IMG/VR virus record: IMGVR_UViG_3300005527_000074
Location: 1 to 52,618 of that record
Length of the DNA stretch: 52,618 nucleotides
Source: a virus
Reading direction: 5' to 3' (one strand)
Shown: positions 11,513-46,349 of the stretch, one piece after another
How positions within the stretch are numbered: position 1 is the first letter of the stretch
Layout: the number at the start of each line of letters is the position of its first letter
Position numbers and translations under genes: made by a program
Notes under the pieces: model-generated
The model's input: the letters and a program-made list of their open reading frames with translations, nothing else
Database searches by the model: none
What the model was told of the DNA's origin: nothing

Positions 11513-11520
11513 TATAAATA
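11513..11520 (+). promoter_or_regulatory. T4 late-type promoter, consensus octamer
   Basis: A perfect TATAAATA lies 4 nt before the ATG at 11525 of the radical SAM gene. There is no Shine-Dalgarno sequence in the remaining gap. The expected start site falls at or inside the ATG. Confidence 0.75.
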
Positions 11521-28373: not shown

Positions 28374-28811
28374 ATGAAAAAACTCTTACTACTCTTGTTG
28401 ATCGTTCCTTGCTTGGCCGTTGCACAACCCAAACAACGACCTGGTGTGACCTATGACGCTGTGATCACTAGAGTCATAGACGGTGACACAGTGGCTTTTC
28501 AAGCACCCTTTCTACCAGCACCTCTCAAGCCCGAACTCTCAATCAGAGTTTTTGGTGTTGACACTCCTGAAAAAGGATTCCGCGCTCAGTGTGCTAGTGA
28601 AGCACAGCGTGGCGAAGCAGCCTCGGCCTTTACTAAAGCAGCCGTTGCTCAGGCGTCACAACGACAAGTAGTGCTCATGGACTGGGACAAGTATGGTGGC
28701 CGTGTGCTAGGAGATGTCTTGTTAAACGGACAAAGTCTACGTCAAATGCTTATTGCCAACGGGTTTGCCCGAGAATACTACGGCGAAGCTAAAACTTCTT
28801 GGTGCAACTAA
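28374..28811 (+). CDS. Secreted thermonuclease-like (SNase) protein
   Basis: A 145-aa protein with a Sec-type signal peptide (MKKLLLLLLIVPCLAVAQP, cleavage likely after VAQ or LAVA). The staphylococcal-nuclease fold signature follows: VIDGDTVAFQ, RVFGVDTPEKG (the Arg, Asp, Thr and Glu positions of the active site) and DKYGGRVLGD, whose Arg corresponds to the second catalytic Arg. The family hydrolyses DNA and RNA using Ca2+. I start at ATG 28374 because a longer in-frame ORF from 28266 would bury the signal peptide. A periplasmic location could serve nucleotide scavenging or block incoming DNA; both are inference. Confidence 0.85.
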   Translation: MKKLLLLLLIVPCLAVAQPKQRPGVTYDAVITRVIDGDTVAFQAPFLPAPLKPELSIRVFGVDTPEKGFRAQCASEAQRGEAASAFTKAAVAQASQRQVVLMDWDKYGGRVLGDVLLNGQSLRQMLIANGFAREYYGEAKTSWCN

Positions 28812-28817
28812 AACGCC

Positions 28818-28825
28818 CGTAAATA
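28818..28825 (+). promoter_or_regulatory. Late-type promoter inside a perfect inverted repeat
   Basis: CGTAAATA ends 4 nt before the ATG at 28830. CCCG-TAAATA-CGGG (28816-28829) is a perfect inverted repeat ending exactly at the start codon, as at the gene 16 start. Confidence 0.55.
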
Positions 28826-28829
28826 CGGG

Positions 28830-29978
28830 ATGAAAGAATTTTATTGCGCTGCCCCCTGGCGTGGCCTGCATATCAATCCCCGAGGCGATGTAAAAACCTG
28901 CTGTGCTGGCAACCCCAACATGCTGGGCAACCTCAATACCCAAACCATTGAGCAAATACTTAATAGCAATCTCATGACAGAGATACGCACCAGTTTGGCC
29001 AAAGGTGAGCCACACGAATACTGTTCTAACTGTGTGCGAGCCGAACGCTTTGGTGCAGATTCTGAACGCCAGTGGCACAACAATGTGAATCCCAACTTTG
29101 ACTATACCACAGCCGGAGATCAGTATCACTATCCTGTGATTGTGGATGTGCGTTGGAATACTACATGCAACTTGAGTTGCAATTACTGCGGCGAAGCATG
29201 CAGTTCAAAATGGGCCAGCCTCAAAGGCATTCCATTCAAGTCAGGTGCCCGGCCCTATTATGATAGTGTATGCGACTTCATTGAACAGCATTATGAACAC
29301 ATACACGAAGTAGCACTGGTGGGCGGTGAGCCACTGTTGCTGCCAGAAAACAACAGACTGCTGGACGTTATACCTAAAGATGCTATAGTTACACTAATCA
29401 CAAACTTGAACGTGGACTTAGATTCAAACAAGATATTCCAAAAGTTATCAACTCGCAACCGAGTTGGTTGGAGCATGAGCTTTGACAACACAGGCGAACG
29501 AGTGGAGTATGTGCGACACGGTGCCAGTTGGGAGTTGATCAAAGAGAATCTTTCAAAGATCAAACATCTAATGACCACACAAGGACAGTGGGGCGGCATT
29601 CATGCTGTGTACAACATCTACAATGCTACACGCATCTGCGAACTACGACAGTTTGCTGAAGAAACAGGTACCACAGTGCTGTGGCAAAACTTGTTTCAGC
29701 CTGAATACCTTGATCCATTTTTGCATGGTGCAGGTGTTGCACGAGAAGCCATAGCAGAGATTGAACGATTCTATGAGATGAACATTGCTACACCCGCTGA
29801 ACGTCAGTTCTTTGACAATGCACTGACCACTTATCGCAATAGATTGAATGAAGACAAAGTCAGCAAAATTGACATGGATTTTTGGCGACACATACACGAC
29901 AATGAGTCTAAGTATCATCCAGACAAAGCTGGTGAATTTCAACGACTGTGGCCAGAATTGGCATTCCTATGCAAATAA
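28830..29978 (+). CDS. Radical SAM protein with N-terminal auxiliary-cluster domain (twitch/SPASM-like), copy 1
   Basis: A 382-aa protein. Cysteines at 6, 24, 25, 65 and 68 (FYCAAPW, TCCAG, YCSNC) precede the radical SAM motif C113, C117, C120 (TTCNLSCNYC) and a LVGGEPLLLPENN motif. A SPASM/twitch-like region placed before the barrel is the arrangement of phage 'twitch domain-containing radical SAM' proteins. It is clearly paralogous to the protein at 30526-31665; both have SFDN...EYVR(H/N)GA(S/D)W and end xxLWP(E/K)L. The substrate is unknown. It overlaps the downstream oxygenase-like gene by 10 nt. Confidence 0.85.
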   Translation: MKEFYCAAPWRGLHINPRGDVKTCCAGNPNMLGNLNTQTIEQILNSNLMTEIRTSLAKGEPHEYCSNCVRAERFGADSERQWHNNVNPNFDYTTAGDQYHYPVIVDVRWNTTCNLSCNYCGEACSSKWASLKGIPFKSGARPYYDSVCDFIEQHYEHIHEVALVGGEPLLLPENNRLLDVIPKDAIVTLITNLNVDLDSNKIFQKLSTRNRVGWSMSFDNTGERVEYVRHGASWELIKENLSKIKHLMTTQGQWGGIHAVYNIYNATRICELRQFAEETGTTVLWQNLFQPEYLDPFLHGAGVAREAIAEIERFYEMNIATPAERQFFDNALTTYRNRLNEDKVSKIDMDFWRHIHDNESKYHPDKAGEFQRLWPELAFLCK

Positions 29979-30529
29979 CACCAGTTGATCAAGATCACAA
30001 TTTGTTTGCAATCATAGATTTGGTTCCGCAATCATTGGTGGACAAAATCTTAGAAACTGATTGGCTGAATATGCCTTGGCAACGTCAAGAAGGCCAAGAA
30101 TCTTGGCCCAGACGTCGGATTGACAATTGTGCGCTGTCATGGATAAGTGAATGGGATCAGTATCTTGAACAACACATAGCCGACATTGAACAAGGCATCG
30201 GCCGAAAACTCAATGGCTATCAAGGCACAGCCTGGTGGTTAGACGAGCCAGGGTTCACCTGCGCCATGCACACTGATGGTGAATTGCCAGGAGCAATGCA
30301 GCTGACTTGGATTGGAGCAGACAGTAGATTGGGCACCGCGTTCTATCACTACAAAAATGACGAGACTTTGCGGTATCAGTTTCCCATGCAACCTAACTCT
30401 GGCTATATCATGATAAACACACCAGACAGTTGCGGCACTAGGCATTTACAATGGCACGCTATGTTAACGCCAGTACCCATCAATACTTTTAGGCTGTGCA
30501 GTTACAGCTGGCTATCGGAGAAATTATGA
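29969..30529 (+). CDS. Putative 2OG-Fe(II) oxygenase
   Basis: A 186-aa protein that fits the double-stranded beta-helix oxygenase pattern. The iron ligands would be H101 and D103 (AMHTDGE) and H163 (QWHAM), with R174 as the 2-oxoglutarate anchor (NTFRLCSYSWLSE). GTAFYHYKND and SGYIMINTPDS are the expected intervening strands. I prefer ATG 29969, which overlaps the radical SAM stop codon region by 10 nt, over an in-frame GTG at 29948. Flanked on both sides by paralogous radical SAM genes with overlaps, it is likely to act in the same pathway. Confidence 0.6.
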   Translation: MQITPVDQDHNLFAIIDLVPQSLVDKILETDWLNMPWQRQEGQESWPRRRIDNCALSWISEWDQYLEQHIADIEQGIGRKLNGYQGTAWWLDEPGFTCAMHTDGELPGAMQLTWIGADSRLGTAFYHYKNDETLRYQFPMQPNSGYIMINTPDSCGTRHLQWHAMLTPVPINTFRLCSYSWLSEKL

Positions 30530-31665
30530 TTACACAAAGTCCCACATTTTGCTCAGCACCTTGGACCAGTCTCAATATTGATCAAACTGGTCTAGTGTTT
30601 CCTTGCATGCATTCGGGTTATGAACTGGGCAACATCAAACAAAAACCCATACAAGAAATTTTGCTTGACCAACCCTTGCAGGAATTAAAAACAGCCATGG
30701 CTCAAGGCAAATGGCATCAAGCCTGCACTTGGTGCAAGCGTCTAGAAGACACTACTGGCAGCAGCGGACGTACAGTGCGTGAACTCAGTGCTAAGTCGGC
30801 TGCTGAAATTGATGCCAACATTGACTGGTTTGGTCTAGAACACATTGTGGTTAACTGGAGTAATCTTTGCAATCTTACCTGTGTGTATTGTAATCCAGAA
30901 ACGTCTACAGCCTGGCAAAGTGTCAAACGCATACCTATAAATCATGTCAAGAACGAACATCAAGATCTAATTGAACTAGCCCAAACACACGGACATACCA
31001 TACGTGGACTCAGTTTAGGCGGCGGCGAACCATTGTTGCAAAAAGGATTGTTAGAATTCTTGAAACATTTGGATTGTAACAAAGTCAATGCTATGGTAAC
31101 AACCAACCTCAGTGTAGACATAGCGTCAAACCCCATCTATCAAGAACTGCGAGAGTGGAAGAATATTAGATGGATGATCAGCTTTGACAATGCTGACAAA
31201 CAAAAATTTGAATATGTACGTAACGGTGCTGACTGGGATCAGTTTGTGCAAAATATTGCGCAACTCAAACAAGATCGTCAGTTTGTGTGGGCTCACCCTG
31301 CTTATTCAATATACTGTGCACTGGATCTTGTTGAATACTATGATTTTTGCGATCAACAGCAACTGGATATTTTTTGGTGCGAACTCAATCATCCCTGGGA
31401 ATTAGATATACGCCGCCAGCCAGCCAAGGCCAGATTAGAAGCTGTGGAAGAGATTGATAAGTGCGTGGCCAAGTATGGCCAGCGGCCAGGCATGAGCACT
31501 GACGCACTGTTGCGTTATCGTCGCACACTGTTAGATACTAGCTATCTTGAAAACATCAGATATGAGTGTCGCACACTTGACTGGCACAAAAACATCGAGC
31601 AAGAACTGAAAAAAACAGTGACCTTTCCACAACTGTGGCCCAAGCTTTCGGAGTTAATATCATGA
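30526..31665 (+). CDS. Radical SAM protein with N-terminal auxiliary-cluster domain, copy 2
   Basis: A 379-aa paralogue of the protein at 28830-29978. N-terminal cysteines are C9, C27, C67 and C70 (FCSAPW, PCMHSG, ACTWC); the radical SAM motif is C115, C119, C122 (NLCNLTCVYC) with LGGGEPLLQKG following. Copy 1 has CC where copy 2 has a single Cys at position 27. The start at 30526 is set by GGAGAAATT and a 4-nt overlap with the oxygenase-like gene; 4-nt coupling also joins it to the SGNH gene. The product of the pathway is unknown. Confidence 0.85.
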   Translation: MITQSPTFCSAPWTSLNIDQTGLVFPCMHSGYELGNIKQKPIQEILLDQPLQELKTAMAQGKWHQACTWCKRLEDTTGSSGRTVRELSAKSAAEIDANIDWFGLEHIVVNWSNLCNLTCVYCNPETSTAWQSVKRIPINHVKNEHQDLIELAQTHGHTIRGLSLGGGEPLLQKGLLEFLKHLDCNKVNAMVTTNLSVDIASNPIYQELREWKNIRWMISFDNADKQKFEYVRNGADWDQFVQNIAQLKQDRQFVWAHPAYSIYCALDLVEYYDFCDQQQLDIFWCELNHPWELDIRRQPAKARLEAVEEIDKCVAKYGQRPGMSTDALLRYRRTLLDTSYLENIRYECRTLDWHKNIEQELKKTVTFPQLWPKLSELIS

Positions 31666-32423
31666 TTTTTGAACGACCACCTTGGCACCCTGGAAAAAAT
31701 TTAGCTGGTACTGAGCTTGAATGGCTGCCTACTGACACCAAAGAAAATTTTGACAAACTCATGCAAGACAGCAAGCATCGGCAGTACTTTCACGACAAAG
31801 GTTGGGATCAGCCTGGTGCCATTACCTATCGTTTTAATACTCAAGGATTTCGCTCTGAGGAATTTGTGCCCGGGGACTGGATATTGGCCATGGGTTGCAG
31901 TTACACCATGGGCATTGGTTTACCGATACAAGACTTGTGGCCAACTTTGGTGGGTCAGGCGCTGGGATTAAAAGTTGCCAATATTGCCTGGCCCGGCTCT
32001 AGTGCAGATACCTGTTTTAGATTGGCTGAGTATTGGATTAAAAGATTAAAACCCAAAGCAGTGTGTATGTTGGTGCCACCTTGGCATAGAATTGAATTGC
32101 TCATGGATCCGGCGGCCAGTATACCAGCTGAAGTGTTTATACCACACAGTTTGAGTAAATATTACAAAGACACTGATGTGTTTTTGACCAACTGGTTCAT
32201 GAATGAAGAAAATCAAAGGTTGCAAGCAAAACGAAACCGATTGGCCATTACTCAATTGGCTCAAGAACACAATGTCTGGTGTTGCATAGTAGATAGCAAT
32301 GACTATATGACTCAGTCACGTGAGGAAATTGAATATGCTAGAGATTACATGCACGGTGGCCCTCAAGCACATAAAATTATAGCGGAGAAAATATTAAATG
32401 ATTGGCATGAAAGGCACACTTGA
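31662..32423 (+). CDS. SGNH/GDSL-type hydrolase
   Basis: A 253-aa protein. ILAMGCSYTMGIGL carries the nucleophile Ser near residue 80 (block I), NIAWPGSSADTCFR is a block II/III-like segment, and ARDYMHGG supplies the D228-x-x-H231 pair of block V. The family includes esterases, O-acetyl-transferases and deacetylases acting on lipids and glycans. I use ATG 31662 (MIFERPPWHPGKN), with a 4-nt overlap, rather than an upstream in-frame GTG. Its end overlaps the gp17 start by 26 nt. Confidence 0.75.
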   Translation: MIFERPPWHPGKNLAGTELEWLPTDTKENFDKLMQDSKHRQYFHDKGWDQPGAITYRFNTQGFRSEEFVPGDWILAMGCSYTMGIGLPIQDLWPTLVGQALGLKVANIAWPGSSADTCFRLAEYWIKRLKPKAVCMLVPPWHRIELLMDPAASIPAEVFIPHSLSKYYKDTDVFLTNWFMNEENQRLQAKRNRLAITQLAQEHNVWCCIVDSNDYMTQSREEIEYARDYMHGGPQAHKIIAEKILNDWHERHT

Positions 32424-33987
32424 CACTGTACTGGTCAAAGCACCACATCGCAAAGAAACTTTTACTGAGCAAGAGCTAGAAGAATTTGCAAGATGTGCGG
32501 ATCCCGTCAACGGTCCGATGTATTTTCTTGACAACTTTTTCTACATTCAACATCCTGTGCGCGGCAAGATGTTGTATCATCCGTTTGAGTATCAACGGCG
32601 GCTGATTGACAACTACCATAACAATCGTTTTTCAATCTCGTTGATGCCACGACAAACTGGCAAATCTACATCAGCAGCTGGTTACCTGCTGTGGTATGCT
32701 ATGTTTGTGCCAGACTCAACAATTCTCATTGCCGCACACAAATATCTAGGCGCACAAGAGATCATGCAACGTATAAGATATGCTTATGAGTTGTGCCCTA
32801 ACCACATACGTGCTGGCGCCACAAGTTACAACAAAGGTTCGTTAGAGTTTGACAACGGTAGTCGTATTGTCAGTCAGACCACTACTGAAAACACTGGTCG
32901 TGGTATGAGTATTACCTTGCTGTACCTGGACGAATTTGCGTTTGTGCGACCCACAATTGCCAAAGAGTTTTGGACTTCTATTACTCCTACACTAAGCACT
33001 GGTGGTAAGGCAATTATTACTTCAACCCCAAACTCAGATGAAGACCAGTTTGCGTTCATTTGGAAAGGTGCCAACAAGATTGAAGATGAGTATGGCAACC
33101 CCAGACCCAATGGCTTGGGCATCAACGGCTTCAAGGCATTTCGTGCATTCTGGCGCGAGCACCCAGACCGAGACGACAAGTGGGCCGACGAACAACGAGC
33201 ACAGCTAGGCGAAGAACGTTTTCGCAGAGAAATGGACTGCGAGTTTGTGATCAATGATGAAACTTTGATATCTCCAATTAAATTGTTGGGCCTAGAAGGC
33301 GTAGACCCCACACGCAAAACTGGACAAGTGCGCTGGTATCGTGAACCCAAAAAAGATGAAATTTATGTAGTGGCTCTAGACCCTAGCTTGGGCACCGGCG
33401 GTGACCCTGCGGCCATTCAAGTGTTCGAAGCCAGTACCACAGAGCAAATTGCCGAGTGGCGTCACAACAAAACTGACGTGCCCACACAGGTACGTATCTT
33501 GGCTGACATTGTGAAAGAACTATACAGTGTTGTGGGTGACAACAAAAAAATCTACTATTCAGTAGAAAACAACACCATTGGCGAAGCTGCACTGATTTCC
33601 ATCAACGAGTACGGTGAAGAAAACATCCCAGGGTATTTCCTCAGTGACAACACTGTGGTGGCTGGCACAGGACGTAGATTTCGCAAGGGTTTTAACACTA
33701 CCAACAAAGCCAAACTCACAGCTTGCAACAAGCTCAAAATCTTGATTGAAAGCGGGCGCATGAAAATTTACTCCAAACCCTTTATCAGCGAGCTCAAAAC
33801 GTTTGTGGCCAATGGCACCAGTTATGCCGCTAAACCTGGCGAAACTGACGATCTTGTGATGAGTAGCCTGCTGGTCACCCGCATGCTGTTGCTGTTGCAA
33901 GGCTATCATGCTGAACTAAATCAGCACCTCAAAGACCACTCTGACAACATTGTAGAGCCCTTTCCCTTTATCAGTATAATGCGATAA
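32398..33987 (+). CDS. 17: Terminase large subunit gp17
   Basis: A 529-aa T4-type packaging motor. The ATPase domain has MPRQTGKST at about residues 83-91, LLYLDEFAF (Walker B with catalytic Glu) near 174-182 and the coupling motif ITSTPN near 208. The nuclease domain has VVALDPSLGTGGDPAAI near 325, YSVENNTIGEAAL near 386 and a late TDDLVMSSLL Asp pair. Gp17 cuts concatemers and pumps DNA through the portal. Start is ATG 32398 or possibly ATG 32407 (MKGTLD). It overlaps the SGNH gene by 26 nt, so accessory genes and terminase are cotranscribed. Confidence 0.95.
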   Translation: MIGMKGTLDTVLVKAPHRKETFTEQELEEFARCADPVNGPMYFLDNFFYIQHPVRGKMLYHPFEYQRRLIDNYHNNRFSISLMPRQTGKSTSAAGYLLWYAMFVPDSTILIAAHKYLGAQEIMQRIRYAYELCPNHIRAGATSYNKGSLEFDNGSRIVSQTTTENTGRGMSITLLYLDEFAFVRPTIAKEFWTSITPTLSTGGKAIITSTPNSDEDQFAFIWKGANKIEDEYGNPRPNGLGINGFKAFRAFWREHPDRDDKWADEQRAQLGEERFRREMDCEFVINDETLISPIKLLGLEGVDPTRKTGQVRWYREPKKDEIYVVALDPSLGTGGDPAAIQVFEASTTEQIAEWRHNKTDVPTQVRILADIVKELYSVVGDNKKIYYSVENNTIGEAALISINEYGEENIPGYFLSDNTVVAGTGRRFRKGFNTTNKAKLTACNKLKILIESGRMKIYSKPFISELKTFVANGTSYAAKPGETDDLVMSSLLVTRMLLLLQGYHAELNQHLKDHSDNIVEPFPFISIMR

Positions 33988-39193: not shown

Positions 39194-39645
39194 TGTGGTA
39201 TAGTCGAGTAGTTGCCAGTCTTGGTGCTATTCCAGACTTCATTGCTCACTACGAGCGTGAGCTTGAGGATGCCAAAAAAGATTGTCGTATTGGCGGCTTG
39301 GTGGAAAAAAACATCACAGCATTGCCTGGTATCACTGAATTTAGATACAACCAGCTTCAAGAAATTGAAGCTGTGTTGAACTATCTCAACATCCAACTGC
39401 GCAAGATACGTAGAAAGCACTTTCAAAAGTACCTAGAAGGCTATGCTCGTGCGCTCACAAGTCGTGACGCAGAAAAGTATGTGGATGGCGAGGACGAAGT
39501 TATTGACTACGAAACCATAATCAACGAAGTAGCATACCTACGCAATCGTTGGCTGGGTATTATGAAAGGGTTGGATACCAAACAGTGGCAAATGGGACAT
39601 ATTGTGCGCCTAAGAACTGCTGGCATGGAGGACATACAGGTGTAA
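39193..39645 (+). CDS. uvsY: UvsY recombination mediator
   Basis: A 150-aa helical protein of the T4 UvsY type. It has TEFRYNQLQEIEAVLNYLNI, a basic QLRKIRRKHFQKYLEG helix, SRDAEKYVDGEDEVIDYET, and a C-terminal WLGIMKGLDTKQWQMGHIVR matching the T4 ending region (ILLDFCSGALDAIKSRGFAIKHI). UvsY displaces gp32 and loads UvsX on ssDNA. The ATG overlaps the preceding stop codon (TGATG). Confidence 0.8.
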   Translation: MWYSRVVASLGAIPDFIAHYERELEDAKKDCRIGGLVEKNITALPGITEFRYNQLQEIEAVLNYLNIQLRKIRRKHFQKYLEGYARALTSRDAEKYVDGEDEVIDYETIINEVAYLRNRWLGIMKGLDTKQWQMGHIVRLRTAGMEDIQV

Positions 39646-39648
39646 ATA
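39641..39648 (+). promoter_or_regulatory. Late-type promoter inside an inverted repeat
   Basis: TGTAAATA lies 5 nt before ATG 39654 and overlaps the uvsY stop codon. CAGGT-GTAAAT-ACCTG (39637-39652) is a perfect inverted repeat ending one base before the ATG. Confidence 0.5.
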
Positions 39649-39653
39649 CCTGC

Positions 39654-40421
39654 ATGAAAAAACTTGTTATAGTGACTGGTGGGTTTGACCCACTACATTC
39701 TGGACACATTGCCTACTTACAGGCAGCTCGCAAACTGGGAGACAAGCTTGTGGTAGGACTCAACAGCGACTCTTGGCTTGCTCGTAAAAAAGGCAAGCCT
39801 TTTATGCCTTATGCTGAACGATACGCAGTGCTAACCGAACTGGTCTGCGTTGACCGTGTGTTGGATTTTGATGACTTTGATGGATCTGCCAAGGCATTGA
39901 TACAACACATGCTGGACACAACTGATAATGATGTCAATTTGATATTTGCCAACGGTGGTGATAGAACCGACAAGAATATTCCAGAGATGGATATTGAAAA
40001 CAGCAGACTAAGTTTTGCATTTGGTGTTGGTGGCTTTAACAAAACCAATAGTTCAAGTTGGATTCTTGAAGAGTGGAAAAAGCCCAAGACAGATCGCTCC
40101 TGGGGGTACTACCGTGTGCTACATGAAGTTGGTACACACACCAAACTCAAAGAACTCACTGTCACACCCAAAACTTGTTTGAGCATGCAACGACACGACA
40201 AGCGAGCAGAGTTTTGGTTTGTGGCCGAAGGTGCTGCCACAGTATACACACTGGATTCCAGCACTGATAGAGATGTCAAAGACCACATGACTATACATGA
40301 GTCTTGTTGGATCAATCGTAACGAATGGCATCAGCTGTGCAATGAAACTGATCAGCCACTCAAACTGATTGAAATACAGTTTGGGGAAAACTGTGTAGAA
40401 GAAGATATTGAACGCCGATGA
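39654..40421 (+). CDS. Cytidylyltransferase-cupin fusion
   Basis: A 255-aa two-domain protein. The N-terminal half is a HxGH-type nucleotidyltransferase: VTGGFDPLHSGH at residues 7-18, VGLNSDSWLARKKGKPF, YAVLTELVCVDRVLDFDD and an NKTNSSSWILEEW end motif (the ISSS-like motif). Relatives make CDP-glycerol, CDP-ethanolamine or ADP/CDP-sugars. The C-terminal ~110 residues form a cupin similar to type II mannose-6-phosphate isomerase domains: SWGYYRVLHEVGTHTKLKEL, MQRHDKRAEFWFVAEG and NEWHQLCNETDQPLKLIEI. I start at ATG 39654, directly behind the promoter hairpin. It overlaps the next gene by 4 nt and opens the glycan cassette. Confidence 0.85.
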   Translation: MKKLVIVTGGFDPLHSGHIAYLQAARKLGDKLVVGLNSDSWLARKKGKPFMPYAERYAVLTELVCVDRVLDFDDFDGSAKALIQHMLDTTDNDVNLIFANGGDRTDKNIPEMDIENSRLSFAFGVGGFNKTNSSSWILEEWKKPKTDRSWGYYRVLHEVGTHTKLKELTVTPKTCLSMQRHDKRAEFWFVAEGAATVYTLDSSTDRDVKDHMTIHESCWINRNEWHQLCNETDQPLKLIEIQFGENCVEEDIERR

Positions 40422-41104
40422 AAGACATTATACCAGTATTTGTAGGATACGATCCTAGAGAAGCAATTGCATATCACACTTGCGTAAATTCTATCATTCG
40501 AAATTCAAGCAGACCTGTTGCAATCATTCCGGTTGCACTTAACTTGTTCAAGGACTACAGCGAAACACACACTGATGGTAGCAATCAATTTATCTACACA
40601 AGATTTTTAGTGCCTTACCTAATGCAATTTACAGGCTGGGCAATCTTTATTGATGGTGATATGGTAGTACGTGGGGACATTGCTGAATTGTGGGGTTTGC
40701 GAAATGCCTATGCAGATGTAATGGTAGTCAAGCACAACTACAAAACCAAAATGACTGAAAAGTATCTTGGGTCAAAGAATGAGGACTATCCACGTAAGAA
40801 CTGGTCAAGTGTTATACTTTGGAACTGTGGCAGTTTCCCCAATCGTAAACTAATGCCAGAATTTGTGCAAAAGGCCACTGGCGCCGAATTGCATAGATTT
40901 ACCTGGCTAGATGATACTCGTATAGGCGAACTGCCGCCTGAATGGAATTGGTTGCCTGATGAATACGGGCCAAACCCCGACGCCAAGCTCTTGCACTATA
41001 CCTTGGGCACTCCATGCTTTCACGAGTTTGCTGACACTCCACAATGTGAAGATTGGCACCGAGAACGCATACTAACAGAATACTGCCAACAGAGAAACAT
41101 ATGA
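40418..41104 (+). CDS. GT-A glycosyltransferase (GT8-like)
   Basis: A 228-aa protein starting IPVFVGYDPREAIAYHTCVN. It has FIYTRFLVPYLMQFTGWAIF, the metal-binding DGD of FIDGDMVVRGDI near residue 78, a WSSVILWNCGSFPNRK acceptor-side segment and a C-terminal KLLHYTLGTPCFHEF. This is the arrangement of GT8-type retaining transferases, found repeatedly in aquatic T4-like phages. The sugar donor is unknown. ATGA overlaps join it to both neighbours. Confidence 0.85.
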   Translation: MKDIIPVFVGYDPREAIAYHTCVNSIIRNSSRPVAIIPVALNLFKDYSETHTDGSNQFIYTRFLVPYLMQFTGWAIFIDGDMVVRGDIAELWGLRNAYADVMVVKHNYKTKMTEKYLGSKNEDYPRKNWSSVILWNCGSFPNRKLMPEFVQKATGAELHRFTWLDDTRIGELPPEWNWLPDEYGPNPDAKLLHYTLGTPCFHEFADTPQCEDWHRERILTEYCQQRNI

Positions 41105-42081
41105 GCGAAGAAACTGATGAACAGTTAGCACCATTGACTCAACATGTTTTAGACATGGTGCCTCCTGAAATACATCAATTGTTTAGAGACATCTTGAAGT
41201 ATCGAGTTGATGCTGCTGGCGAATACTATGGTGTCACATTTGAAGCTATAATGCAAACTGTGCGTGATCTTGAAAAACACACAGTTGCAGCCATTGCCAC
41301 AGAACCTGGAGATTTCAAGTATAAGGAAAAAGGACACATGTACGATCCCATACTACAAAGTTTTGTACAAGGAGCTGGTGGAAGAATTAGTTCTTGGTCG
41401 AAAGAAGAAAACAACATGACTCCAGTGGTGCTACGCGGTATTACCAAACGCAAAGAGATGGCAGTGTGCAAACAGCAAGGTAGAGATTTTTACTACCTTG
41501 ACACTGGCTATTTTGGCAACGGTAAGAAAAAAACATTTCATCGTGTTACCAAAAATGATGTGCAAAATTTTGGCCCCATAATTGACAGACCAGGAGACCG
41601 AGTTGCCAAGTGCAATCTCCAACTTACCAAATTTAGGCAAGACGGCGGCAAAATTTTATTGGCCCCGCCTAGCCAAAAATTGTTAAACTTGTATGACATT
41701 GATCTTGAGCAGTGGATGGATCAAACCATTGCTACCTTAAAACAGCACACTGACCGAGAAATCGTAACACGTTTAAAACAAGGTCGATCAGTACGACAAA
41801 CCACTGATACCATGCAAATGGCTCTACAACAAGATATCTGGTGTCTAGTCACTTACTCAAGCATTGCCGCTGGCGAAGCACTGTTGTGTGGTAAACCTGC
41901 TATTACTTTAGGGCCCAATGCTGCAGGAATGCTGTGTAGTCAGCGACTTGAAGAAATAGAAAATCCACGTATACCTACTCTAGACGAAGTAGAGGCCTGG
42001 ACCAGGCACATTGCCTACTGCCAGTTTACTGAGCCAGAAATGCGAGATGGCACTGCTTGGCGAATTCTCAATGACTCTTGA
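41101..42081 (+). CDS. GT-B-like glycosyltransferase paralogue A (capsule-type)
   Basis: A 326-aa protein with a helical N-terminal extension (~75 residues) and a domain shared with the protein at 44755-45555. Shared elements are YLDTGYFGN, WMDQTIATLKQHTDREIV, SIAAGEALLCGKPAITLGPN and a late VEAWTRHIAYCQFTEPEM. The serine-Gly/Ala-Glu-Ala...GKP pattern resembles the C-terminal nucleotide-sugar half of capsular-polysaccharide GT-B enzymes. Start is ATG 41101, a 4-nt overlap with the GT8-like gene; a longer frame from 41053 is not needed. Confidence 0.65.
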   Translation: MSEETDEQLAPLTQHVLDMVPPEIHQLFRDILKYRVDAAGEYYGVTFEAIMQTVRDLEKHTVAAIATEPGDFKYKEKGHMYDPILQSFVQGAGGRISSWSKEENNMTPVVLRGITKRKEMAVCKQQGRDFYYLDTGYFGNGKKKTFHRVTKNDVQNFGPIIDRPGDRVAKCNLQLTKFRQDGGKILLAPPSQKLLNLYDIDLEQWMDQTIATLKQHTDREIVTRLKQGRSVRQTTDTMQMALQQDIWCLVTYSSIAAGEALLCGKPAITLGPNAAGMLCSQRLEEIENPRIPTLDEVEAWTRHIAYCQFTEPEMRDGTAWRILNDS

Positions 42082-43006
42082 TTGTGTTACCTACGTATCC
42101 AGTGTGGCCAATCCCAAAAAGCATTCACGAAAGATTGAGTGCTTGGAATCTTTTGCCGCCGGGGTAGTGTCACAGGGTCGCACTGGCATAATTGAATGGA
42201 ATCATCAATACACTCCCAGCAAGCTGGCAGTGATCTTGGGTTGGGCCACAACCAATACAGGTGGTCGTAACATTGCCTTACGCAAAAATGTCATTGCTGA
42301 ACAGCAACGTCGTGGATTTCAAACCATGTGCATTGATGCTAGTTGTTTTAAGTACCTTGACAACTATGGCACCTATCTAAGATACAGTCTGGGTGGGCCG
42401 TTTTATGATCGAGCGCAATATGCTAACCGTAACAGTGGACCAGAAAAATGGAATGAAATACAGTCAGCATTAAATCTTACCATGCAACCACCTCGCCTAA
42501 AACGCACTGGTTATATTTTGATATGTATGCAACGTGATGGTGGTTTTGCTATGAAAACTCTAGATCCCATAACTTGGTTGCAAGAAAAAATACAGCAAAT
42601 TAGAAATGTAACTATGCGTGACATTTATATAAGGCCGCACCCAGGTCAATACAACATGGCAGATTTTGCTGCTTACGTTGGCAGTCGCGGCCGAAAGTGG
42701 CGATGCACCGTACTTGAGCCTACTCAAAGCCGACTTATTGATAATCTTCAATCAGCACATTCTGCTGTGTTTTTCAACAGTTCTGCCAGTGTGGCTGCGG
42801 TACTGGCTGGTGTACCAATCTTTGTAGACGACGGCAGTTGTGTCTCTTGGACAGTGGCCAACAAAGATATTTCACAAATTGAAAACCCAGCATTAATTGA
42901 TGCTGAACGCACTCCGTGGATTCAAGATCTCAGCGCCGCTCACTGGAGCGACAATGATGCCCGCGCTGGCCGCATTTGGCAGAAGTTTATGCCTTTTCTA
43001 CAATGA
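42071..43006 (+). CDS. GT-B-like glycosyltransferase paralogue B
   Basis: A 311-aa protein with the same C-terminal architecture. YILICMQRDGGFAM is a strand-Gly loop, DIYIRPHPGQYN the phosphate-contact region, and AHSAVFFNSSASVAAVLAGV the SxxxxEA-like helix. PIFVDDGSCVSWTVANKD and EN(P)ALIDAERTPWIQDLSAAH match paralogue D at 46362. ATG 42071 overlaps the preceding gene by 11 nt. The 3' end overlaps the convergent methyltransferase gene by 20 nt. Confidence 0.65.
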   Translation: MTLDCVTYVSSVANPKKHSRKIECLESFAAGVVSQGRTGIIEWNHQYTPSKLAVILGWATTNTGGRNIALRKNVIAEQQRRGFQTMCIDASCFKYLDNYGTYLRYSLGGPFYDRAQYANRNSGPEKWNEIQSALNLTMQPPRLKRTGYILICMQRDGGFAMKTLDPITWLQEKIQQIRNVTMRDIYIRPHPGQYNMADFAAYVGSRGRKWRCTVLEPTQSRLIDNLQSAHSAVFFNSSASVAAVLAGVPIFVDDGSCVSWTVANKDISQIENPALIDAERTPWIQDLSAAHWSDNDARAGRIWQKFMPFLQ

Positions 43007-43547
43007 CATCATACACGTGGCCTTTGACCCAGGCCCACTTGTTTGACTTGTCCATCACTGACACTTGCTCGCTTATGATGCGGACTCCCATGACGTCAAT
43101 AAGTTTGCTGCGCCACCAATCAGGTTCTTTGACCACAAGGTGTGCATTTCTGCCATCTGGCAAATGTTTTTTGGCTGGATAACAAGCAATCCTAAAACAG
43201 CCACAGCGTTGCATCAGTTGTCCAATTGTGCGCAAAGTTTGGTCAAGATGTTCAGGCTCAATGTGTTCAATGGCGTCAGTACTGACCACAGCATCAAACT
43301 GCCCGGAAGGTAAATTTTTATATTGTTCACTGCCGGGATCGTATCCGGCCAGTGCAATTGTGGGATGTAGGCTATGTATTACTCCTATCAGTGCACCATG
43401 TCCGCAACCAAAATCTAACACACTGACGGGTTGGTACTGTTTGATAAAATGTTCAACAACTTTGTAGGCCTTGGCACCGTGGTTGAACTTGCCGTTGCTG
43501 TGCATGGTTGCTAGTTGCTGTTGATAATCTTTGTCAATTAATGTCAT
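42987..43547 (-). CDS. Class I SAM-dependent methyltransferase
   Basis: A 186-aa protein with motif I VLDFGCGHGALIGV, an acidic strand LAGYDPGSEQY and FDAVVSTDAIEHIEPEHL, the usual motif II/III of small-molecule methyltransferases of the UbiE/COQ5 type. Probable substrates are sugars of the glycan made by the surrounding enzymes. It is the last gene of a five-gene minus-strand operon and overlaps the upstream methyltransferase by 14 nt. Confidence 0.85.
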   Translation of the reverse strand: MTLIDKDYQQQLATMHSNGKFNHGAKAYKVVEHFIKQYQPVSVLDFGCGHGALIGVIHSLHPTIALAGYDPGSEQYKNLPSGQFDAVVSTDAIEHIEPEHLDQTLRTIGQLMQRCGCFRIACYPAKKHLPDGRNAHLVVKEPDWWRSKLIDVMGVRIISEQVSVMDKSNKWAWVKGHVYDVIVEKA

Positions 43548-44133
43548 TATTCATCCAATCAGGATTGTAAGGTTGATCTCGGAACCACCAGTGTAATTGG
43601 GAACCTTGCCAGTCACTGAAAAATTCTTTGTACCATTGTTGACTGCGTTCAGCAGAAAAATGTTCTTTGTTATATATTTGTTTTTTGGCCTTGGGAGGCT
43701 GGGAGTGCATGCCAATAAAACACACAATACCAGTAAGCTTCATTAGTCGTTGTTTTACCCAGACTAAATCAGCATCAGGTATGTATGGCAACACTTGATT
43801 GCATATAACCAAATCGTATTGTTGATCTGGTGGCTCAACAGCAAATTCTGCAACACAAGGGTCGTACTGGAACACACTGTTGACATTGAGATAGTCAACA
43901 AACTTCATTACTGTAGTGTCGGGCCAAAATGCTGTAGTTTCTGCCCACTGGCGTCCTTTGCCGCATCCGTAATCAAACACAGTTTTGCAATTGTAATGGT
44001 GTGCCACATCTCGTATTTGTCTATGATATGAAAATGTATCTTTGCCGTCCCAGCTTTTATTCTGTTGCTGAAATTGAGTGCCCAGTGCAACTGACTCTTG
44101 ATAATACGAACTTACGACCATCCCATAATCCAA
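43534..44133 (-). CDS. SAM-dependent methyltransferase, second copy
   Basis: A 199-aa protein with motif I TVFDYGCGKGRQW, the acidic strand SVFQYDPCVAEF and YDLVICNQVLPYIPDAD. It differs from the neighbour at 42987 but has the same fold pattern. Start may be ATG 44133 (overlap 22 nt with the FkbM gene) or ATG 44121 (MVVSSYYQES, overlap 10 nt). The C-terminal HWWFRDQPYNPDWMNND is unusual. The substrate is inferred to be glycan-linked from context. Confidence 0.8.
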   Translation of the reverse strand: MDYGMVVSSYYQESVALGTQFQQQNKSWDGKDTFSYHRQIRDVAHHYNCKTVFDYGCGKGRQWAETTAFWPDTTVMKFVDYLNVNSVFQYDPCVAEFAVEPPDQQYDLVICNQVLPYIPDADLVWVKQRLMKLTGIVCFIGMHSQPPKAKKQIYNKEHFSAERSQQWYKEFFSDWQGSQLHWWFRDQPYNPDWMNNDIN

Positions 44134-44762
44134 TCATCTTTGACTTGGTCAAGTCGGACCATGCCCCACGATTGCAAAAGTTCAATGGCAGCAAATTGAC
44201 TGTATTGATCACTGTATGCATCATGTGGCTTCTGTTCAAGAACCACAATGGGGCGATTTTGTTTGATAGTATATACGGCTCCCAACAATACTTTGTACTC
44301 AAATCCTTCACAATCTAGTTTGATGTAATCTAAGTTTTGATATTCAAAGCTGTCCAATGTGCACACTATGGTATCGCCTTGTCCTATGCTGGTGGGATCA
44401 ATGTGAGTATGACCAGTATTGCCTTCGGTAATGTTCATGCGAGCTGTGGTATTGATGTCGCCTAAGGCCACAGTTTGCACTAACAAGTTTGGCGCAGTTA
44501 CATTTCGCGACAAGCACTCTCTAAACATAGCCACTGGTTCAAACGCTATTACCTGTTGAAATTCACGCACCAAGCTACGAGTCCACAGGCCAACATTAGC
44601 ACCTACATCTATAGCCAGTCGACGTTGTTGACAAAAAGCCACACTGCGATTCCTTACAATGTGTTGATACTCTGACGGACCGCCTTTGTCTACACTTTTT
44701 TTCAACATACGTGGAAAGTGTGATTCAGTTTCTGGGAACCACCACCCATAATCATTACGCAT
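44112..44762 (-). CDS. FkbM-family methyltransferase
   Basis: A 216-aa protein. AIDVGANVGLWTRSLV is motif I, IAFEPVAMFREC the acidic strand, and CTLDSFEYQNLDYIKLDCEG plus FEYKVLLGA the FkbM signature. These enzymes O-methylate sugars and polyketides. It overlaps the GT-B-like gene upstream by 8 nt. With two further methyltransferases next to it, the cassette appears to build a multiply methylated glycan. Confidence 0.88.
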   Translation of the reverse strand: MRNDYGWWFPETESHFPRMLKKSVDKGGPSEYQHIVRNRSVAFCQQRRLAIDVGANVGLWTRSLVREFQQVIAFEPVAMFRECLSRNVTAPNLLVQTVALGDINTTARMNITEGNTGHTHIDPTSIGQGDTIVCTLDSFEYQNLDYIKLDCEGFEYKVLLGAVYTIKQNRPIVVLEQKPHDAYSDQYSQFAAIELLQSWGMVRLDQVKDDWIMGWS

Positions 44763-45555
44763 CAGCGTACTCCTCTAAAATTTTATGTGCTTGACCATTG
44801 CCTAGTTCGCTGATATGGAATTGACCATATGCCAAGTGGCAAGCCCAGGCGTAGATCATGTCATGATCGGGAAACCAAGGGTTGTCAATTTTGGTTAGAT
44901 CACGATTAGACACAGGATCGGCTGCATTGCTGGGTGCTGTAACAAACGCTGGCACACCTCCCAACACCGCTTCAGTGGCAGCAATACTGTTGTACACTAC
45001 AACAGCATGAGCAGTATCAAGCAAACTTGTAAAGGGCGCTGACTCTCGAACTTGCCTATTTTTATTGCGCTCTCTTATCACAACAGGCCTATCAGTATTT
45101 GCTTTGATAGTGTCTATAGTTTGTTGCAACCATTCAGCAACAGTGGTACCATAAACAATGCAAGGCTTTTCTTCAGGCATCACAATGTAGATGTTTTGAC
45201 CATATCGTCGTGGTTGAATGTCAAGACCAAGCTGTTTCCATCTATCATCAGGACATTTGCGAATCTTGTTGTGCTGCAAATCATTGTCAACAATTCGATG
45301 CCACAATTTCCAACCATGTGGGTTACGCATACTTGATCGGTTGCCAAAGTAGCCGGTATCCATGTAACGAAACCTTCGTTGATCTTGCCAACACTGTTTG
45401 AAAATTTTGTGTTTCATAATACCACGAATCACAAGCGGATCAGTGCTGTCACTGTAGTTCCATGTTTCTAGTACAGTGGATCGAGAATTGGCTCCCTGGG
45501 CAAACGCATTCATGTAGCCGTCAGTGCCGTGTTTGCTGAGATAGATCCAGTTCAT
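44755..45555 (-). CDS. GT-B-like glycosyltransferase paralogue C
   Basis: A 266-aa protein, the closest relative of paralogue A. RFRYMDTGYFGNRSS, VAEWLQQTIDTIKANTDRPV, AVVVYNSIAATEAVLGGVPA and a late YAWACHLAYGQFHISELGNG line up in order. It lacks the ~75-residue helical extension of A. I use ATG 45555 (MNWIYLSKHG), which overlaps the upstream stop codon as ATGA; an in-frame TTG lies 6 nt further up. Confidence 0.65.
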   Translation of the reverse strand: MNWIYLSKHGTDGYMNAFAQGANSRSTVLETWNYSDSTDPLVIRGIMKHKIFKQCWQDQRRFRYMDTGYFGNRSSMRNPHGWKLWHRIVDNDLQHNKIRKCPDDRWKQLGLDIQPRRYGQNIYIVMPEEKPCIVYGTTVAEWLQQTIDTIKANTDRPVVIRERNKNRQVRESAPFTSLLDTAHAVVVYNSIAATEAVLGGVPAFVTAPSNAADPVSNRDLTKIDNPWFPDHDMIYAWACHLAYGQFHISELGNGQAHKILEEYADA

Positions 45556-46349
45556 TGCCAATATGCCTCTGTTCGTTGTACTTTTAAATCTGTAGCAGGA
45601 CTGCGCCCTGTGGTCTTGCGTTTGCCTTTGAGATGATCTAGGTAGGCACCCCAGTCTGAATTAATTAGCGGATGACCTTCACCAGTGATCAAGTGACTGC
45701 TCCAATCTAACTCGTTTAATTTTACTTTTTGTCGAACGGCATCAAAAACAAAACTATCGTGCCATTCGGCTAGGTCAAAGATACCTTGCTCTGCATGGTC
45801 ATACATCTGTTGAAATTTTTGGAGAAACAACTGTGTGGCAGGGCTACGCAAATTCATGGCATACAATCCGCATTCACTAAACTTACCACGCCGCCCTAAA
45901 AAGCAAAGATCTGTTGTACCAGGGCACAATCTTTCTAAATCTTCTGTAGTTATAGGACTGTGGCACACTGTGTCTGCGTCCATCCAAATCAACCAATCAG
46001 TGTCAGTGTGTTTGGCACAATGGAAAATGCTGTAGACTTTGTGAGCAAATCTCACAGCGTCCCATTTGAATCCTTTGCCTGCGTCTCGGCGTCGAGATCT
46101 AATGGGGTCAGCACTGACATCACCATTGGCTTCGGGTACACCACGCCACTGAGTTTTGAATGCTACCAGTTCAGGACTGACTTGTTCAAGATTGTGCACG
46201 GCCAGGTGTGGTGACGATTCGGTCACTGTGCACCCTTCTGCATAGACTACCAAATCAACAGGCCAGTTTTGCAAAAAAGTTTGGATCATGCGCCGGCCAT
46301 AATTCTCGTATCCGTCGGCGTTGAAAGTGGTACATACTGTGTATTTCAT
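45552..46349 (-). CDS. GT-A glycosyltransferase
   Basis: A 265-aa protein starting MKYTVCTTFNADGYENYGRR. WLIWMDADTVCHSPIT holds the metal-binding DxD (D124, D126), and CFLGRRGKFSECGLYAMNLR is the acceptor-side segment. This family recurs in cyanophages and other aquatic myoviruses. It is the first gene of the minus-strand operon; a late-type ACTAAATA box ends 6 nt before the ATG. Confidence 0.8.
   Translation of the reverse strand: MKYTVCTTFNADGYENYGRRMIQTFLQNWPVDLVVYAEGCTVTESSPHLAVHNLEQVSPELVAFKTQWRGVPEANGDVSADPIRSRRRDAGKGFKWDAVRFAHKVYSIFHCAKHTDTDWLIWMDADTVCHSPITTEDLERLCPGTTDLCFLGRRGKFSECGLYAMNLRSPATQLFLQKFQQMYDHAEQGIFDLAEWHDSFVFDAVRQKVKLNELDWSSHLITGEGHPLINSDWGAYLDHLKGKRKTTGRSPATDLKVQRTEAYWQ

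Follow-up and report, generated by a model that had tools for sequence, protein, structure and literature searches.

Radical S-adenosylmethionine (SAM) genes recur in aquatic phages and have stayed functionally blank. In pelagimyophages, cassettes of such genes come and go in a hypervariable host-recognition region that also holds glycosyltransferases, and they are read there as O-chain modification (PMC7029224). For TARA_ERS488813_N000010, a T4-like environmental genome, 12 radical SAM genes and an Fe–S theme are described (PMC5332604). Cyanophages carry multiple 2-oxoglutarate (2OG)-Fe(II) oxygenases, linked there to 2-oxoglutarate levels (PMC3037559). We analyzed the viral record IMGVR_UViG_3300005527_000074 from IMG/VR over its full 52,618 nucleotides (the window) and found, directly before the gene for the terminase large subunit (TerL), an operon of two radical SAM genes (rSAM1 and rSAM2), a predicted 2OG-Fe(II) oxygenase gene (OX), and the gene of an SGNH-like protein (SGNH). 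Radical SAM cassettes are known from T4-like aquatic phages; what is new here is the TerL-linked, ordered operon with OX, SGNH, and gene fusions.

The locus shares with the pelagimyophage cassettes its setting in T4-like aquatic phages but differs in its place directly before TerL, its own late-promoter-like box, its defined gene order, the presence of OX and SGNH, and the fusions; the available part of the pelagimyophage account names no such operon (PMC7029224). With TARA_ERS488813_N000010 it has in common a T4-like genome with many radical SAM genes and an A-type Fe–S carrier, whereas neither a TerL-linked module nor an expansion of radical SAM proteins with an N-terminal twitch domain (N-twitch) is described in the part of that report at hand (PMC5332604). 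OX resembles the cyanophage oxygenases (PMC3037559) in fold, with a template modeling (TM) score of about 0.65 to viral protein models from phages S-CAM1 and S-CAM9, but is only about 10% identical to them. The operon is not described in the open literature that we searched, a search outside which most subscription papers fell. The locus is a small, testable unit whose natural one- to four-gene versions differ by single steps. Working out its chemistry would assign a function to members of the N_Twi_rSAM family and reveal what large aquatic phages produce in late infection.

A Modular Operon before TerL

An earlier note on this DNA described five tightly packed genes before the terminase, and all five frames were confirmed at 28374–32423 on the + strand, packed against TerL (Table 1). 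The note gave overlaps of 4–10 nt for the last four; this holds for the internal junctions (10 nt for rSAM1/OX and 4 nt each for OX/rSAM2 and rSAM2/SGNH) but not for SGNH and TerL, which share 26 nt (17 nt if the second ATG of TerL is the start codon). An 18-nt spacer separates the nuclease gene from rSAM1. Wherever the comparison with relatives could be computed, the rate of nonsynonymous change was far below that of synonymous change (dS) for each gene, many dS values being saturated; the genes of the block are under purifying selection and are not chance frames.

Table 1. Features of the pre-TerL locus in the window
Feature	Position	Strand	Evidence and remarks
SNase-family nuclease	28374..28811	+	PF00565, 42.1 bits; N-terminal signal-like hydrophobic stretch; neighboring slot
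TAAATA late-promoter-like box	28820..28825	+	10 nt 5' of rSAM1 start codon
rSAM1, core gene of the cassette	28830..29978	+	NF033640, 215.2 bits; cysteines invariant; twitch aligns with BtrN
OX, predicted 2OG-Fe(II) oxygenase	29969..30529	+	H101xD103...H163...R175; AlphaFold2 pLDDT 93.8; Foldseek
rSAM2, N-twitch radical SAM paralogue	30526..31665	+	NF033640, 189.5 bits; 11 aligned relatives
SGNH/GDSL-type hydrolase or acyltransferase	31662..32423	+	GCS80 ... D228xxH231; AlphaFold2 pLDDT 94.5; Foldseek
TerL, terminase large subunit	32398..33987	+	57% identity to PA5oct TerL; 5' end overlapped by SGNH

The locus is modular and nearly fixed in order, [nuclease]–rSAM1–(OX)–(rSAM2)–(SGNH)–TerL, with rSAM1 as its core. 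We pooled 107 nonredundant rSAM1-to-TerL loci from anchored searches, the counts from which are not population fractions. The full rSAM1–OX–rSAM2–SGNH set was present in 24 loci and rSAM1 alone in 27, while 17 loci had rSAM1–OX–SGNH (and one more the same with rSAM1 and OX fused), 15 had rSAM1–SGNH (with one further fused case and two with tandem SGNH), 13 had rSAM1–OX, 6 had rSAM1–rSAM2–SGNH, and 1 had SGNH before OX. SGNH followed rSAM2 in all 30 of these loci that contained rSAM2, and OX was present in 24 of the 30. Of 77 loci with a called OX, 73 could be read upstream, and in 72 of these rSAM1 lay directly before OX; the exception (L136) reads rSAM1–SGNH–OX. In a TerL-anchored scan that did not select for the block and retained 59 loci that either showed the nuclease or had more than 6.5 kb upstream, we counted the nuclease in 59, rSAM1 in 38, SGNH in 18, OX in 11 (always after rSAM1), and rSAM2 in 4.

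The four genes were thus recurrent as an operon before TerL in other phages, and they proved separable though not scattered. The modular architectures reject an obligate four-gene unit, and the rSAM2-anchored scan rejects the idea that rSAM2 never occurs without OX. The complete modification pathway proposed in the earlier note was not supported: subsets occur and, the set being modular, no more than rSAM1 with optional tailoring steps is implied. Outside the rSAM1–TerL arrangement, two contigs carry Endonuclease_NS–rSAM2–TerL, and three have rSAM2 inside a second, carbamoyltransferase-type cluster. In one genome (G005), this second locus reads carbamoyltransferase, then a distant 2OG-like gene, an SGNH-like gene, and an rSAM2 that shares about 51% identity with its window counterpart. 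On a TerL tree of 55 tips, the minimum number of changes was 14 for nuclease type, 10 for SGNH, 6 for OX, 5 for rSAM1, and 4 for rSAM2.

Two of the genes were also found joined. In L142 and L143, contigs from two metagenomes that are identical over 3918 bases, rSAM1 and OX form a single 564-amino acid frame; the OX ATG has become ATA, so that both the rSAM1 stop and the OX start are gone. The two contigs may stem from repeated sampling of one virus; an assembly error is thereby unlikely, and the pair counts as a single event. The fused frame suggests a shared substrate for rSAM1 and OX. In one contig (L047), rSAM1 and SGNH form a single 618-amino acid frame; this case is the weaker of the two, being known from a single contig with an in-frame GTG where the genes join.

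Late-Promoter-Like Box before rSAM1

The hexamer TAAATA was found within 30 nt upstream of the rSAM1 ATG in 86 of 99 distinct genes, at 10–11 nt in 85 of them and at 13 nt in one. Within the same distance it preceded rSAM2 in 1 of 30 cases and TerL in 1 of 88, and it preceded OX in 2 of 140 cases, a set collected with a permissive pattern. The + strand of the window has 16 TAAATA boxes, 9 of which sit 6–30 nt before the start of a + strand gene, against an expectation of 0.28. After rSAM1, the next gene-preceding box lies at 33985, where TerL ends; another box, at 32156, lies inside SGNH. The full T4-type late promoter TATAAATA is not conserved before rSAM1, only its TAAATA core.

The motif is conserved before rSAM1 but nearly absent before the downstream genes and TerL, a pattern that supports late cotranscription from rSAM1 to TerL, in agreement with the late expression with the packaging motor that the earlier note had proposed. 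By analogy with T4, the spacing of such boxes would yield leaderless or nearly leaderless late transcripts, starting at or near the ATG. Late-promoter-like boxes stand 10 nt before the start codon of several window genes (e.g., at 11515, 21767, and 28820). At 28816–28829 and in relatives, 28 of 87 loci in all, TAAATA falls within a short inverted repeat (e.g., CCCGTAAATACGGG) immediately upstream of the rSAM1 start codon.

Predicted Enzymes of the Cassette

Both radical SAM proteins exceeded the 170-bit cut-off of the NCBIfam family N_Twi_rSAM (NF033640), and both matched the Pfam domain SPASM (PF13186) at the N terminus; Pfam Radical_SAM was matched in both as well, with the rSAM1 score slightly under the cut-off. 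The two are paralogues, with about 30% identity across the full length. The CxxxCxxC motif of the SAM cluster (C113, C117, and C120 in rSAM1 numbering) was invariant in 12 mixed sequences, as were the cysteines of the rSAM1 N-terminal twitch (C6, C24, C65, and C68), and the reading as two paralogous radical SAM proteins with N-terminal auxiliary-cluster cysteines was upheld.

The matches in the Protein Data Bank (PDB) that cover the rSAM1 twitch come from BtrN, 2-deoxy-scyllo-inosamine dehydrogenase. Over its four cysteines, the twitch at the rSAM1 N terminus aligns with the one at the C terminus of BtrN, and the radical SAM cores align as well; however, the domain order is reversed in rSAM1, and the overall sequence similarity is weak. 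PDB sequence matches also include the radical SAM cores of maturases of ribosomally synthesized and posttranslationally modified peptides (RiPPs). Neither rSAM1 nor rSAM2 had a Pfam match to PqqD or a RiPP recognition element (RRE) at E ≤ 1, and no RiPP precursor gene is adjacent, the frames overlapping or sitting 18 nt apart, an observation on the locus only that allows for a precursor elsewhere in the genome. The missing PqqD/RRE match and the lack of room between the frames count against a RiPP. Two other candidates were rejected: the PADLOC matches to viperin are weak (E values from 6e-8 to 8e-9) and reflect nothing beyond the shared radical SAM core, and identity to the QueE/KVP40-type radical SAM protein is just 22–23%.

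OX matched no Pfam family at E ≤ 1. A structure model built from 23 relatives with AlphaFold2 had a high predicted local distance difference test score (pLDDT; Table 1) and a double-stranded beta-helix fold, placed by Foldseek with probability 1.00 and TM scores of 0.54–0.65 next to PHD2, prolyl-4-hydroxylase (P4H), and SnoN in the PDB. AlkB is among the structural matches, with OX closer to P4H-type folds. The HxD...H iron triad and the 2OG arginine were invariant in 23 sequences. One relative in BFVD, at 40% identity closer than the cyanophage oxygenases, comes from an uncultured phage. By predicted fold and motif, OX belongs to the 2OG-Fe(II) oxygenases, an assignment at superfamily level only, and the putative oxygenase of the earlier note between the two radical SAM genes gains a confidently predicted fold.

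For the SGNH protein, the block I serine (G78-C79-S80, with GCS replacing GDS) and the block V DxxH (D228 and H231) were invariant in 24 sequences. Foldseek matched the model to TesA (E value 4e-7, probability 1.00) and also to PatB and acetyl-xylan esterases, at query TM scores of 0.3–0.45 and mostly high root-mean-square deviation. It scored 14.3 bits against the 32.9-bit cut-off of Pfam Lipase_GDSL_2 (PF13472), and we describe the protein as SGNH-like and do not place it in that family. The active sites predicted for OX, the SGNH protein, and the radical SAM twitch thus appear intact in sequence and modeled fold.

Carriers and Genomic Context

The carriers are large T4-like phages of an uncultured clade. 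While the window is a 52.6-kb fragment, its close relatives, all of them IMG/VR contigs, reach 364 kb; we take their source metagenomes, going by the metagenome numbers, to be mostly freshwater. Pseudomonas jumbo phage PA5oct has structural genes directly before TerL, without such a block, and in Sinorhizobium phage Phosso a hypothetical gene takes that place. A tblastn search of 50,697 phage records found no relatives of OX or SGNH. For rSAM1, only distant matches were obtained, in two Vibrio phages. Pattern scans of 84,980 genomes confirmed no cellular homologues of OX or rSAM1, the motifs being short enough for distant relatives to escape.

N_Twi_rSAM proteins are expanded in the clade, with 16 matches over the cut-off in G004 and 13 in G003. 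Four loci (L101–L104, from G004, G003, G005, and G001) hold clusters of at least five N-twitch radical SAM genes with carbamoyltransferase, amidinotransferase-like, SGNH-like, and AMP-binding genes, which look like a phage-borne biosynthetic cluster. Among 15 records (G000–G014), a carbamoyltransferase stands beside tandem N-twitch radical SAM genes in 5, all large contigs; A-type Fe–S carriers, which would help supply clusters to such enzymes, occur in 11, often two per genome, and SAM synthetase in 2 (G003 and G004).

The window itself has a glycan-type group at 39549–46349, on both strands, comprising a cytidylyltransferase/ManC-like fusion, GT8 and GT2-like genes, and methyltransferases. 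In relatives, a PF01370 epimerase is among the accessory genes near the slot, as are putative glycosyltransferases called by eye. Two loci (L004:10445–12989 and L018:9831–12447) have an insertion that separates SGNH from TerL and encodes a putative glycosyltransferase, another GDS-type protein, and a PF01370 epimerase.

Proposed Role and Alternatives

We read the locus, at a confidence that leaves the matter evenly poised, as a late, modular tailoring cassette of large T4-like phages, whose likeliest substrate is a sugar or glycan. A T4-type late promoter before rSAM1 would drive rSAM1–OX–rSAM2–SGNH–TerL as a single transcript. The N-terminal twitch of rSAM1 would hold an auxiliary [4Fe-4S] cluster, like the C-terminal twitch of the aminocyclitol dehydrogenase BtrN, and rSAM1 would carry out the core radical reaction; OX would then use O2 and 2-oxoglutarate to oxidize that substrate, rSAM2, where present, would add a second radical step, and the SGNH protein would add or remove an acyl group. 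Altering the host envelope polysaccharide late in infection could keep progeny from re-adsorbing to debris or keep competitors out; alternatively, the glycan may be one on the virion. We infer the order of the steps, the glycan target, and the biological benefit. A glycan is our preferred target, in what is close to a balanced choice, because of the nucleotide-sugar, glycosyltransferase, and methyltransferase genes of the window, the carbamoyl- and amidinotransferases beside N-twitch radical SAM genes in its kin, the epimerase and putative glycosyltransferases near the slot, and the BtrN matches over the twitch.

Several points weigh against the tailoring of a glycan. The acyl chemistry of SGNH proteins suits glycan, lipid, and protein alike; the OX fold is equally near to protein prolyl hydroxylases and to sugar or antibiotic oxygenases, and most characterized SPASM/twitch enzymes have peptide substrates. 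For the putative glycosyltransferases close to the slot, neither Pfam nor any named PHROG gave a match. As for the association of the genes, the Fisher tests ignore relatedness, and independent-pair tests on the 55-tip TerL tree were too small to show correlated gain.

The main rival, which we hold to be unlikely, is that the cassette modifies a phage protein of the fiber, head, or tail: rSAM1 would make a crosslink, an epimerization, or a similar change by radical chemistry, OX would hydroxylate, and SGNH would trim an acyl group, giving a tougher or differently binding virion. The late operon with TerL, the place between structural genes and TerL, the closeness of OX to PHD2 and prolyl-4-hydroxylases, and the RiPP maturase cores among the PDB matches all agree with this, whereas the lack of a PqqD/RRE domain and of an adjacent precursor, the epimerase inserted at the locus itself, and the carbamoyltransferase, amidinotransferase, and AMP-binding genes beside N-twitch radical SAM genes of the same genomes argue against it. 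Hypermodification of the phage DNA ahead of packaging seems to us very improbable. 2OG oxygenases and radical SAM enzymes do occur in known phage DNA-modification pathways, and the TerL overlap and late timing would fit; however, the locus showed no gene known for base modification on an inspection that was not a systematic search, and OX is nearer to P4H-type folds than to AlkB.

The adjacency could also mark a hot spot, with unrelated accessory cargo gathering in an insertion-tolerant slot before TerL and forming no pathway. The high turnover on the TerL tree and the differing insertions in relatives are what such a slot would produce, but the fixed order and nested co-occurrence, the open-frame fusions, the meeting of the same enzyme kinds at a second locus, and purifying selection make this explanation, in our view, quite improbable. 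Within the preferred reading of a late tailoring cassette, it is conceivable, if doubtful, that the locus represents a so far undescribed late pathway in which an N-twitch radical SAM protein and a 2OG oxygenase, sometimes fused, act in turn on one substrate and finish the virion or host surface during packaging, as one branch of an N-twitch repertoire of up to 16 genes per genome.

Nuclease Slot

The earlier note had counted the secreted nuclease in the same block, a grouping that the relatives contradict. The window gene passes the PF00565 cut-off of 21 bits (Table 1), and the slot before rSAM1 or TerL holds either an SNase or an Endonuclease_NS (PF01223; e.g., L021:3722–4540 and L062:9270–9974). 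The two types alternate whatever genes come after, and membership of the nuclease in the pathway was rejected; it is probably a separate, exchangeable slot outside the tailoring cassette. In one contig (L168:3768–5423), SNase and rSAM1 share an open frame because the nuclease stop codon is gone, whereas the rSAM1 ATG is kept. A single lost stop codon, possibly an error, suffices for this, and we gave the joined frame no weight. Against several relatives, dS was lower for the nuclease and rSAM1 than for TerL, with many values saturated; this is only suggestive of a more recent exchange of the two genes than of TerL. The exchange of two unrelated secreted nucleases in one slot suggests that an exported nuclease is a conserved requirement.

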